This document shows positions 58,074 through 64,000 of a DNA stretch of 64,000 nt, piece by piece (within the stretch, counting starts at the first letter, position 1; every line of letters begins with the position of its first letter). Below the pieces are notes generated by a model. The model was not told where the DNA came from, did not search any database, and was given only the letters and a program-made list of their open reading frames with translations. The position numbers and the translations under genes were made by a program. This DNA is from Lysobacterales bacterium (GTDB lineage Bacteria; Pseudomonadota; Gammaproteobacteria; Xanthomonadales; SZUA-38). The stretch spans positions 1-64,000 of the forward strand of contig JANQOZ010000103.1 of the NCBI GenBank assembly GCA_028285525.1, given 5' to 3'.

Positions 58074-58149
<76 letters not shown>

Positions 58150-59217: not shown

Positions 59218-59257
59218 TGAATCTATCCGACCGACAGTGAATCTATCCAATCGACAG
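59218..59257 (-). repeat. 20-bp imperfect tandem duplication at the end of the 211-aa gene
   Basis: TGAATCTATCCGACCGACAG (59218-59237) is followed directly by TGAATCTATCCAATCGACAG (59238-59257), 18 of 20 identical. Twenty is not a multiple of three, so in the minus-strand gene the second copy is read in a different frame and supplies the TAG stop. With one copy only, the frame would continue a few codons further and end in ...DSMEENN. Confidence 0.85.
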
Positions 59258-59858
59258 CGATTTCATGGAAGTCACGGCCGAGATGTCTTTGCTTGTGAGC
59301 TGATTTCACCGATCCGTCTGCATAAGCAACTGCCGCTTGTCTCGCGGCCTTGAAATTGCCTTCCGCAATTAGGGAGGTGACATAGGTGATAGCGTATGTC
59401 CCTCGTTCAACGTGATTAGGATGTCTTGCGACTGCACTGGAAAAGCTCTCAGCCCTCAGTCTGTGCAACGCCGTTTCAACTTGAGAGTCGGCCCACTCCA
59501 AAAGCTTTCTCGCCAGCACATCCGCGCCCATTCCTTCATCGGGGATTGATTCCCGGCTCAATGGCAGCCCGGGACAAGTAAACGCACCCCAACTTCGAAA
59601 TGACAGAGGTTGGGAATTATTGGCTTCCAGACCAGTGATGTTCCAATAGTGCGTGTCTAACGTCATCGGCTTTGCCGACATCGCAAAAGTCGTTTTTCGG
59701 TCGTTAACAAATACACTGACAAATACATCAAAGTAGAACCCAAGTAACTCGCAAAAGATCGCATTTTGCTTCTTCTTCCATCGAGACCCCTTTAGTTTGG
59801 TAGGGAGGACCTTCAGAAGGTCTTTCTCAAAAGACCGGCGTTCCGAGCTGAATGTCAC
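59223..59858 (-). CDS. Hypothetical protein, unrecognised
   Basis: A 211-residue, probably cytoplasmic protein: no signal peptide or membrane helix. The N-terminal half is basic, then mixed beta (SSERRSFEKDLLKVLPTKLK, RWKKKQNAIFCELLGFYFDV, FVSVFVNDRKTTFAMSAKPM). The C-terminal half is helical (ADVLARKLLEWADSQVETAL, NFKAARQAAVAYADGSVKSA). A 20-bp tandem duplication at the 3' end has changed its last residues. No database family is claimed. It lies between the M56/BlaI unit and the putative lipoprotein, all on the minus strand. Confidence 0.55.
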   Translation of the reverse strand: MTFSSERRSFEKDLLKVLPTKLKGSRWKKKQNAIFCELLGFYFDVFVSVFVNDRKTTFAMSAKPMTLDTHYWNITGLEANNSQPLSFRSWGAFTCPGLPLSRESIPDEGMGADVLARKLLEWADSQVETALHRLRAESFSSAVARHPNHVERGTYAITYVTSLIAEGNFKAARQAAVAYADGSVKSAHKQRHLGRDFHEIAVDWIDSLSVG

Positions 59859-60046: not shown

Positions 60047-61624
60047 TTACGCCGAGGTAAGAAGCCGAGGCGTCACTTCAACACGGATTATTGTCTCATC
60101 CGTACCAATCTCCACAATCGCATCTTTCTCCGGAAGCGTGAGTAAAGAAGGCGTGGCGACTAGTTTTCCTGAATCGATCTCGCTAATTCGAAATTCGATG
60201 AGAATCTGGTCACCTTCCAGGATCGTGGGTTTAACATTGACTTCGAAACCAGCCTGGCGGACGCCAAACCAGTTCTTGTTGACGAGCAGTAAATCGGGAC
60301 GCTGCATTTCGATATCGTCGATTCTTACCAAGAGATCCGCGGAAACTCTCGGCAGGGACAGATCATCGGGAGCAGGTTTCATATGCCCCATAATTAACGC
60401 GACGCCCAGCCATGTCCGGTTGTCGGGCTCAAGTAACTCTTTGGCGGCTAGCAAAAGGTTTTCACCTTCTCTGGCAACACCAAATCGGTCACCAAAATCA
60501 GGGTTGGCGTTGAGAAGCGCATTAACACCGTCCATCCAATTCTCCGTTGTACCGACAATCGTTACGGTGATCCTATGGTGATTAATCTCAGGATGGGCGA
60601 GCACGTGGAGCCGACCGAGGCTCGCTAGCATCTGAATCGCGGCGCCATAGTGAGCGTTGTCAAGACGAAGCTCGTAACTACCGTCATCCGCGATTGAAAG
60701 CGAAGTGCTCGCTGATTGCCCCAACGGCGACGGTTGCCTTTCCTCAGCCTGCAAAACCACTGAGATTAGTAGGGCCAGCGCCGCTCCGATCACCGCAAGA
60801 TGTCGGGCCGTGAGTCTGGGGTCGGACGCCAGGTGTTCGATTCGGCCCACAATGGCTTTCCGACCGGCAATGGCAGACGCACCGAACGCGTTTTGGGTCG
60901 GTAAAAACTGTGCTAGCTGGGTGACCTGTCGCAGGTAGTGGCCCGTCGCCAATTTGGTGGCGCTCGCCTCATCGCAGGACATTTCGAGCCGCGTCCTGGC
61001 CAGGTTAGCCAGAATCCAAACCAGCGGGTTCCACCACAGCGCATGACGGACCATTTCTATCGCGAGAACCCAAATATTATCCAGCCGCCTTGCATGGGTC
61101 AGTTCATGGGCCAGGACTGACTCAACTTCGGTTCTCGCCAGGAGCTCCTCGCCGATCCAGACAGTTGGCCGAAAAAGCCCTGATGTCATCGCTATCCGAC
61201 CAGGTACGACCCTGATTCGACTGGCGGACACCGCGAATGACCGTGGCAAATCCTCGATGGCTACTGGCCGGCTTTGCATATGCAGACGCCGCACCAGAAT
61301 CAAGCTCTGCCAACCTCTAAAGCACAGAACCAGAAGTCCGATGAACGCTGACGACAGCAGCGCGATAGCCCAGAAGTCGACTTCACTAGTCGCTTTTACT
61401 GGCACCGTGGATTCTAGTAGCGCTGGACCGATGGGCACGATGTCGTAGTCTGTGACCATCTGTGGCGCCTCAGTCACAACAATTGGCTGTAGCGGGAGAC
61501 ACCAGCAAGCAAGAGCCCCACAAGCAGCGAAAAATCCAATCTGCGCTGGCGCGTTTTTCAGCAGCCTGACTACCAGCAGAGTGATTAAGCTGATCGAGCA
61601 GTTCAACGTGAGCCAGGCAATCAT
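60047..61624 (-). CDS. M56/BlaR1-family metallopeptidase fused to a secretin-like C-terminus
   Basis: A 525-residue protein. The N-terminal half is a BlaR1/MecR1-type M56 membrane peptidase: helices at 1-20, 30-50 and 85-105, then VWIGEELLARTEVESVLAHE followed by the zinc motif HELTH and a downstream acidic EMSCDEA that could supply the third ligand. A last helix at about 275-295 (HLAVIGAALALLISVVLQAE) leads outside. Instead of a penicillin-binding domain, the C-terminal part resembles secretin N and beta domains: YELRLDNAHYGAAIQMLASL, AHPEINHHRITVTI, WMDGVNALLNAN, then VNVKPTILEGDQILIEFRIS and KLVATPSLLTLPEKDAIVEI. It overlaps blaI by 4 bp. Confidence 0.82.
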   Translation of the reverse strand: MIAWLTLNCSISLITLLVVRLLKNAPAQIGFFAACGALACWCLPLQPIVVTEAPQMVTDYDIVPIGPALLESTVPVKATSEVDFWAIALLSSAFIGLLVLCFRGWQSLILVRRLHMQSRPVAIEDLPRSFAVSASRIRVVPGRIAMTSGLFRPTVWIGEELLARTEVESVLAHELTHARRLDNIWVLAIEMVRHALWWNPLVWILANLARTRLEMSCDEASATKLATGHYLRQVTQLAQFLPTQNAFGASAIAGRKAIVGRIEHLASDPRLTARHLAVIGAALALLISVVLQAEERQPSPLGQSASTSLSIADDGSYELRLDNAHYGAAIQMLASLGRLHVLAHPEINHHRITVTIVGTTENWMDGVNALLNANPDFGDRFGVAREGENLLLAAKELLEPDNRTWLGVALIMGHMKPAPDDLSLPRVSADLLVRIDDIEMQRPDLLLVNKNWFGVRQAGFEVNVKPTILEGDQILIEFRISEIDSGKLVATPSLLTLPEKDAIVEIGTDETIIRVEVTPRLLTSA

Positions 61625-61998
61625 TTGCTTCGCCTCTCTTGGGCTTCGCTAACCATTCTCTGGATCTCGGCGATTTCTTCCCGCGAGAGTTCAGTGTCCT
61701 CCATGAGATAGGAAAAAAGCGTCGACCGATCAGCACCAAAGACCCGTTCAACAAAACTCTTCAGCATCGGACGCCGAACGCTATCCTGATCCACAGCCGC
61801 GGCATAAATGATGGTCCGCCCATGCTGCTCCACCCGAGAGAGCGCGCCCTTACCCTCCAGTCGGTCGACGATCGTCTTGACGGTAGAGTAGGTAACGTCG
61901 CGAGTACGACGAACCTGTTCATGAACCTTTGGAACCGAAAGCTCTCCGAATTTCCAAAAGATCTGCAGTACCTCAAGCTCAAACTCAGAAAGTGTCAT
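61621..61998 (-). CDS. blaI: BlaI/MecI/CopY-family transcriptional repressor
   Basis: A 125-residue winged-helix repressor with a strong SD (AAGGAGG, 5 nt). Typical motifs: LSEFELEVLQIFWKFGELSV, PKVHEQVRRTRDVTYSTVKT (recognition helix), IVDRLEGKGALSRVEQHGRT and the dimerisation/cleavage region MLKSFVERVFGADRSTLFSY. In BlaR1/BlaI systems the peptidase cuts or triggers cutting of the repressor to release target genes. It is encoded upstream of and overlaps the M56 gene. An operator-like TACAATTGTA lies on its own promoter, so autorepression is likely. Confidence 0.93.
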   Translation of the reverse strand: MTLSEFELEVLQIFWKFGELSVPKVHEQVRRTRDVTYSTVKTIVDRLEGKGALSRVEQHGRTIIYAAAVDQDSVRRPMLKSFVERVFGADRSTLFSYLMEDTELSREEIAEIQRMVSEAQERRSK

Positions 61999-62013
61999 AC
62001 CGGCCTCCTTTCT

Positions 62014-62046
62014 CTACAATTGTAGATTAACCTCTACGTCTGTCAA
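62014..62046 (-). promoter_or_regulatory. blaI promoter with BlaI-type operator over the -10
   Basis: On the minus strand TTGACA (62041-62046) is followed after 16 nt by TACAAT (62019-62024), a near-consensus sigma-70 promoter. The -10 is part of the 12-bp palindrome CTACAATTGTAG (62014-62025), which contains TACA-N2-TGTA, the core of BlaI/MecI operators. The palindrome ends 16 nt before the ATG. A weaker inverted repeat CTCTA...TAGAG (62032-62053) lies around the -35. The divergent gene at 62086 could share this control. Confidence 0.75.
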
Positions 62047-62085: not shown

Positions 62086-62802
62086 ATGGAATATTGGATG
62101 TCCAAACACCCAGGAATCGAAGGGAGCATCCCCATTCACACCTTTTGCCTGGCATTTATCCTCGCCATTTCCTCAGAGGGGTTTGAGCGCAAATATGTTT
62201 TTGGTGGCGAACTGACAGCGCGCCAGGAAGCAGACGTACTAGAACTTGCGCGACTTGCCGGCGTGAACTCGGTTGCAGAGATTCAGACCTACTATCTGAG
62301 GCGCGATGGGGTTGGCATTGTCGCGAAAGAAAAAGAGTCAGTGACCGGGAGGCGAGTCAGGTACCGCGTAGTGCGAATGGTCGAGAAGAAGTGGACGACC
62401 GGCTGGCCTTTTTTTCCAGCACCGGACACTCTTCGGGTTGGGGAATTCTTGCTGCAGTCGGTAAACCATCAGGATTTAACGACGGTCTTCGTTGGCGGGT
62501 CAGAATTCAGAATCGCCCTGGATGAATCAGTGACACCAGATCAAGCCGAGGTGCTGATCGAGAAACTTCAAGATCGTGCGTTCGAACTCGGGCCGCAAGT
62601 GGACCGACGAATGCTGCAGGGGCCTCCGATGGGTGCTCCGTTGGCTATCTTCGCCGTAGACGCTCCCCTCTTTCCTGACCTCGCTTTGGGCGTAACATTT
62701 GAACGAACTGAGTCGTCCGGACAAAGACAAACTAGGACCTTTTTTGTACCCAAATTTCGCGGGCCACTTCGCGTCTTGAAAGTGGTAATAACGAGTGAGT
62801 AG
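62086..62802 (+). CDS. Hypothetical protein with N-terminal hydrophobic segment
   Basis: About 238 residues from ATG 62086 (alternatively ATG 62098 with GGA 7 nt upstream). A hydrophobic stretch (IPIHTFCLAFILAISSEGFE) may be a signal peptide or anchor. The rest has alternating beta/alpha character (LTARQEADVLELARLAGVNS, TDQAEVLIEKLQ-like helix, VTFERTESSGQRQTRTFFV). No family recognised. It is divergent from blaI over 88 bp, so it may be a BlaI target. Its stop overlaps the next gene by 8 bp. Confidence 0.6.
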   Translation: MEYWMSKHPGIEGSIPIHTFCLAFILAISSEGFERKYVFGGELTARQEADVLELARLAGVNSVAEIQTYYLRRDGVGIVAKEKESVTGRRVRYRVVRMVEKKWTTGWPFFPAPDTLRVGEFLLQSVNHQDLTTVFVGGSEFRIALDESVTPDQAEVLIEKLQDRAFELGPQVDRRMLQGPPMGAPLAIFAVDAPLFPDLALGVTFERTESSGQRQTRTFFVPKFRGPLRVLKVVITSE

Positions 62803-63251: not shown

Positions 63252-64000
63252 CTAATCAAGGATCGCATACGCCAACTCCGTTGCTTCTTCGATTTCTTCA
63301 TCCGAAAGGTCCCAAACGATCCAGCGCATTCTTCCTCTGGCATCCTCCGAGACCCCCTCAGTTCCAATGATTTCAGCGGCCTTTGCGTAGGCGTAGGCTT
63401 TGACAGCATCTTTGGGGAAGACATCGCCAATTTGGAGCATCCGGGCCATTAGCAAAAGCCCCTGAGGATGGTCGGAAGCAAGCAGTTGCCGCGCATAGTT
63501 CGCCGCGTTCCTTTGGAACACCGCGATCAGTTCTGGGTGACGAAAAACCAGATCTGCGTCATAGCCGGCAATCAGATCTCTTGCACGATAATGATAGAGC
63601 CTTTGTGCCCCCATGTGCCCAAGATCGGCTGCGTTCGTAATCCACTCTAGTGCCGCCGAATCCGCATCAAAATCCGCTCCGAGCTGGCGACAGAGTCGAT
63701 ACGATTGCATGAGGGAATCAAGGGATTGTTCGTATTGATCGACATCGATTGGCCTTGATTGATTTTCACTTCGCTGGACAACCGCTTCAATTTGCGCAAG
63801 TCGATTTTGAACATCCCAGTCCGTTCGCGGAGACTTGCGACAATAGTCGAAGAAAAAGTAAAGCCACATGGCGGCTTCAGGGTCTCCGGCTAATGCTTGC
63901 GCCTTTAGTTTTGAGAAATCAGCGGGATCTGCACTTTTGATCACCTCAGCCTGCGCAGCAGCCCAGGAGTCGATCCCGGTAGTTTCGTCAAGAACAACTT
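63252..64000 (-). CDS. SEL1/TPR-like repeat protein, 5' end cut by the window edge
   Basis: Open on the minus strand from the right edge (VVLDETTGIDSWAAAQAEVI is in frame) to a stop at 63252, so about 249 residues are seen and the start is outside. An internal GTG at 63944 is probably not the real start. Helical repeats with SEL1-like small/aromatic patterns occur: KLKAQALAGDPEAAMWLYFF, ALEWITNAADLGHMGAQRLY, GLLLMARMLQIGDVFPKDAV followed by KAYAYAKAAEI. The C-terminus is acidic (SDEEIEEATELAYAILD). It may be a distant relative of the SEL1 protein at 25559. Confidence 0.65.
   Translation of the reverse strand, partial: VVLDETTGIDSWAAAQAEVIKSADPADFSKLKAQALAGDPEAAMWLYFFFDYCRKSPRTDWDVQNRLAQIEAVVQRSENQSRPIDVDQYEQSLDSLMQSYRLCRQLGADFDADSAALEWITNAADLGHMGAQRLYHYRARDLIAGYDADLVFRHPELIAVFQRNAANYARQLLASDHPQGLLLMARMLQIGDVFPKDAVKAYAYAKAAEIIGTEGVSEDARGRMRWIVWDLSDEEIEEATELAYAILD

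Follow-up and report, generated by a model that had tools for sequence, protein, structure and literature searches.

A BlaI-M56 gene pair of a Lysobacterales bacterium with a putatively secretin-related sensor

The locus described here lies in a window of 64,000 nucleotides (the whole stretch of DNA analysed) from a Lysobacterales bacterium, and raises the question of which signal may be perceived by a BlaR1-like membrane protease whose outer part is not a penicillin-binding protein (PBP) domain. As first described, a BlaI ORF overlaps the ORF of an M56 sensor, the overlap being 4 bases, and the genome (6.23 Mb, 98% complete) encodes seven M56 proteins and seven BlaI proteins. We regard the BlaI-M56 switch at this locus, which moves horizontally and has a secretin-related sensor, as real; in it a DNA-binding repressor is paired with a membrane protease by which it should be destroyed. 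The relevant features are as follows.

61621-61998, minus strand: BlaI-family repressor, 125 aa (PF03965, 2.2e-29; MecI/BlaI structures match at 1e-10)
60047-61624, minus strand: M56 membrane metalloprotease sensor, 525 aa (PF05569, 8.5e-15)
61094-61108, minus strand: HELTH zinc motif, residues 173-177 (ungapped against H201-H205 of BlaR1; invariant in alignment A1)
60983-60985, minus strand: E214, third zinc ligand (spacing equal to that of BlaR1 E242)
60746-60802, minus strand: fourth membrane helix, residues 275-293 (hydropathy peak 2.19)
60410-60697, minus strand: tentative N0/STN-like outer module, residues 310-405 (co-linear with PilQ N0)
60050-60379, minus strand: putative secretin-like beta domain, residues 416-525 (weak PF00263 match, profile ranking, structure comparison)
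62035-62044, minus strand: operator A, GACAGACGTA (overlapping the -35 element TTGACA, 62041-62046)
62015-62024, minus strand: operator B, TACAATTGTA (overlapping the -10 element TACAAT, 62019-62024)
59223-59858, minus strand: downstream gene for a 211-aa protein of no known family (93% amino acid and 96% nucleotide identity with the sister species)
58074-58149, plus strand: tRNA-Phe gene (its 3' half recurs as the repeat of the sister-species island)

The repressor belongs to the BlaI/MecI family, scoring 102.6 bits against Penicillinase_R (PF03965; cut-off 22.6 bits), and the sensor contains, within its M56 domain, the motif HExxH and a downstream glutamate typical of peptidase family M56. 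In BlaR1 of Staphylococcus aureus the zinc-site residues are H201, H205 and E242 (PMC9834060); E214 of the sensor lies 37 residues past H177, which equals the H205-E242 spacing of that enzyme (PMC9834060), and the zinc-site alignment to the BlaR1 entries 8exs and 8exp is ungapped but weak (E 0.29-0.35). Hydrophobic peaks at residues 1-19, 32-50, 84-102 and 275-293 point to four membrane helices followed by an outer C-terminal domain (hydropathy only). Of the features claimed by the earlier note, the HELTH site is present and the BlaR1-like helices are predicted. Compared with the 95% identical orthologue of the sister species, the M56 gene carries 54 synonymous and 24 non-synonymous codon changes. 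The pair thus resembles BlaR1-BlaI and MecR1-MecI of S. aureus in its adjoining repressor and M56 genes, its equally spaced HExxH...E, its four predicted helices and its C-terminal sensor outside, but differs from them in having neither a PBP sensor domain nor a beta-lactamase or mecA target. The NCBIfam BlaR1 model gives 41 bits, against a cut-off of 400.

The outer part of the sensor comprises 232 residues (294-525), and all residues past the helix 275-293 are predicted to be periplasmic. It contains none of the motifs S..K, S.N and K[TS]G, and no transpeptidase or PBP domain is matched by Pfam in the sensor, in agreement with the proposed absence of a penicillin-binding domain; a C-terminal part of the known BlaR1 type, which would have spoken against the original reading, is likewise not indicated by motifs or Pfam. 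Such PBP-less M56 sensors are common, as the domain is absent from 10/10 M56 proteins scanned with Pfam and also from BlaR of Mycobacterium tuberculosis (PMC9834060). M56 proteins whose outer domain is TonB_C, ankyrin or of another kind (L015, L031, L002) share the M56 core and a variable periplasmic C-terminus with the sensor, which is distinguished from them by the type of its outer domain and by its distinct clade. One of these (L002:1465-3555), with ankyrin repeats at its C-terminus, is another M56 protein of the window genome.

The last ~110 residues of the sensor are probably related to the beta domain of secretins, a relationship supported by several lines of evidence from sequence profiles and modelling that are individually marginal but mutually agreeing. 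Like the secretins PilQ, GspD, InvG and phage pIV, this region contains a gate segment P-S/R-L..T....A and a V-x-P strand, whereas it has no barrel and no outer membrane location and consists solely of a minimal beta core attached to a protease. The Secretin model (PF00263) matches with an E-value of 0.0071 (16.4 bits), below the gathering score of 27.5. When a search profile built from M56 proteins of family f8, of the window and of its genus was run on 7,079 ORF frames, the M56 relatives were followed almost exclusively by secretins, most of them matching at the same gate segment with few exceptions; because secretin loci had been added deliberately to these frames, the evidence lies in the ranking and in the common position rather than in the E-values. 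Applied to 398 genomes of the order, the beta-domain profile picked out full-length secretins in addition to M56 proteins and small secreted proteins. Against 177,635 distinct PDB sequences, 10/10 of the matches listed for profile A3 were PilQ or GspD, while the broader profile A5 gave these secretins in 8/11 of the matches listed (best E 0.0079). With HH-align, a three-sequence C-terminal alignment matched full secretins only at the 25-residue gate motif, the probability of which rises from 3.7 to 30 once f8 sequences are added.

Structure prediction of the outer part, proposed earlier as a check, gave a weak model of the beta domain and a poorer one of the whole. The single-sequence model of residues 416-525 (pLDDT 63) aligns in VIA-align with InvG, pIV, PulD and GspD over 102-106/110 residues at Z 6.0-7.0, where a Z under 8 can reflect a common arrangement, and only a designed protein ranks above the secretins. 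Foldseek gave nothing under E 0.1 with this model, the secretin-containing entry 7ah9 standing low in the list. The single-sequence AlphaFold model of residues 293-525 (pLDDT 41) was too poor, and its Foldseek matches were discarded as meaningless.

The upstream module, residues ~310-405, is only tentatively N0-like. It follows the PilQ N0 pattern by eye and co-linearly, but shuffled sequences score equally high, and Pfam, the PDB sequence search and profile-to-shuffle tests gave nothing significant for N0/STN in this region. Where the earlier note saw secretin N and beta domains, the likeness of the beta part is supported and the N part is weak. A family f8 M56 protein (L013:1495-2664) possesses, as its sole outer domain, an STN/N0-like one recognised by eye and not detected by Pfam.

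Searches for the N0-like plus beta architecture yielded no more than three proteins, from two species that both belong to the window's genus: that of the window, its 95% identical orthologue and a 59% identical paralogue, the latter two both in the sister species. Compared with this paralogue, residues 294-405 are 76% identical and residues 1-293 are 51% identical, and thus the outer part, above all 294-405, is better conserved between the paralogues than the protease part. Family f8, another family of the order, contains a BlaI-M56 pair with the beta domain alone (BlaI about 40-49% identical), and the M56 parts of the window and f8 form one clade, separate from 27 other M56 proteins (support 100/100). 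A search for the fusion elsewhere, as suggested earlier, recovered the beta-domain version in f8 and the full architecture only in the window's genus. Beta-like modules may occur in further M56 lineages (L026, L031, L032), mostly by inspection. No relative was found on plasmids or viral contigs, and a scan of genome contigs returned M56-core relatives only, 0 with a matching outer part.

In genus g25, small secreted proteins carrying a similar beta domain are encoded next to BlaI-M56 or in its vicinity (L214:7641-8126, by resemblance only; L234:6156-6698; L236:7031-7573; L235:7581-8132; L237:6534-7079), and they persist where the pair is missing. At L239:5416-5856, where the relative L213 has BlaI-M56, all that is left is a 146-aa protein retaining the last helix and the beta domain, as if protease and repressor had been deleted.

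The proposed promoter TTGACA-16-TACAAT with TACA-N2-TGTA over its -10 element is found at 62046-62019. Operators A and B are 20 bases apart, and A is imperfect, with CGTA in place of TGTA; TACANNTGTAG has a chance expectation of 0.04 per window (shuffling). The putative BlaI operators are conserved, since most of 13 aligned loci have one site within TTGACA and another nearer the start, at a distance of 20 or about 36-41 bases. The core of the operator and the type of DNA-binding domain are shared with CopY/TcrY and BlaI family repressors (cop box TACANNTGTA, PMC5772342). CopY differs in that the window BlaI scores 67 bits against the CopY cut-off of 122, lacks the CxC metal pair, as its 125 residues include no cysteine, and has a membrane protease as its partner. 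In a genome-wide search, exact CTACANNTGTAG occurs at four places in 6.2 Mb, namely once in this promoter, twice in another BlaI promoter and once inside a coding sequence (C19). Autoregulation is thus the only output seen, and no promoter away from BlaI genes carries the exact operator in the genome.

Neither a beta-lactamase gene, as already noted, nor a cell-wall gene was recognised near the operon. The divergent gene at 62086, suggested as a possible target, is a poor candidate, because its likeness to the sister species ends ~225 bases in (at 62312) and the start codon is lost in that species, leaving a truncated remnant. The 211-aa gene downstream, which matches nothing in Pfam or PADLOC, travelled together with the BlaI-M56 operon. 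Three adjoining proteins of 333-353 aa without Pfam match (two scanned) are encoded at 63252-64000 and L207:3253-6337, and immediately downstream of the paralogous BlaI-M56 operon there is a distant relative with 27-30% identity (L218:14271-15275).

The operon is situated beside tRNA-Phe, and the sister-species segment that contains it is bounded by copies, 47-49 bases long, of the 3' half of this tRNA gene. Besides the BlaI-M56 pair and the 211-aa gene, this island (L082:1269-11998) carries AbiEi/AbiEii, an AEP-TOTE primase-helicase and a tyrosine integrase. At fourfold sites the two species diverge by 0.31-0.53 in flanking core genes and by 0.04-0.14 in the operon and downstream gene, the latter so far below the former that the block has most likely been transferred horizontally and recently. 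No tRNA-Phe 3'-half repeat marking a second island end was found in C98 of the window genome up to position 156000, and no integrase or recognised defence gene lies beside the window copy.

The reading that we consider likely is a BlaI/BlaR1-type switch which regulates itself and has a sensor for something other than beta-lactams, and whose protease would cut BlaI upon a periplasmic event. BlaI would bind the two promoter-covering operators and shut off its own operon, as the conserved sites suggest. The M56 protein would reside in the inner membrane, its zinc site toward the cytoplasm, and carry a periplasmic sensor in two parts, of which the N0-like module is specific to the genus and the secretin-like beta domain is common to related sensors. 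An event at this sensor, most likely the binding of a protein or envelope ligand via the beta domain, would open the protease, and cleavage of BlaI would release the operon. What the analysis shows is the gene pair with its catalytic residues, predicted topology and operators, along with the domain relationship, the clade and the horizontal movement; repression, BlaI cleavage, the direction of signalling, the nature of the ligand and any functional link to secretins are what we infer. The signal is probably something other than penicillin, since the outer sensor is not a PBP and includes a secretin-related domain. In addition to this periplasmic part, the pair differs from the BlaR1 and MecR1 systems in that the BlaI position aligned with the phenylalanine expected at P1' of the cleavage site appears to be tyrosine, and this counts against the switch model.

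Other explanations were weighed against this switch. The beta domain might be a generic two-hairpin module that dimerises the M56 protease, its secretin likeness being convergence of a short P-S-L..A motif; the matched stretch is indeed mostly about 35 residues, and the domain is highly variable among M56 proteins (24% mean column identity in A5). This is nevertheless rather doubtful, as secretins dominate the PDB matches listed for both A3 and A5, two separate segments match secretins, and structure comparison independently gives several secretin kinds over nearly the whole domain. The system may instead have remained responsive to the cell wall or beta-lactams, with a non-PBP sensor detecting peptidoglycan damage products or another beta-lactam-binding protein. 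BlaI-M56 pairs studied to date mostly respond to beta-lactams or wall stress, and the M. tuberculosis BlaR is tied to the beta-lactam response despite having no PBP domain (PMC9834060); we consider it unlikely here, given that the operon has no recognised beta-lactamase or wall gene beside it, the f8 loci have no common neighbour, the outer part is devoid of PBP motifs and the exact operator occurs in no promoter apart from those of BlaI genes.

It is improbable that the operon, as cargo of the island, works on behalf of the mobile element or of its AbiE/TOTE defence genes, with the sensor watching the envelope for phage entry or assembly. The sister-species copy between tRNA-Phe repeats, together with integrase, AbiEi/AbiEii and AEP-TOTE, and the recent transfer suggested by low fourfold divergence fit this idea, but the f8 operons share no defence neighbours, the window copy has no adjoining integrase or recognised defence gene, and the sensor is unmatched in PADLOC. 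A bolder version of the secretin relationship, to which we give very little credence, is that the outer part acts as a minimal secretin subunit pairing with a phage secretin or with secretin monomers left stray or unfinished, the protease directly reporting the assembly failure; if true, it would be a proteolytic secretin-stress sensor distinct from the Psp response. No paper linking M56 and secretins was found in the open literature.

To our knowledge, nearly all study of BlaR1-type signalling has been confined to beta-lactams. A defined clade with a secretin-related sensor would show how one protease-repressor core can be turned to other envelope signals, and its clean operators and compact two-gene layout would make it a tractable system for identifying what a non-PBP M56 sensor binds.
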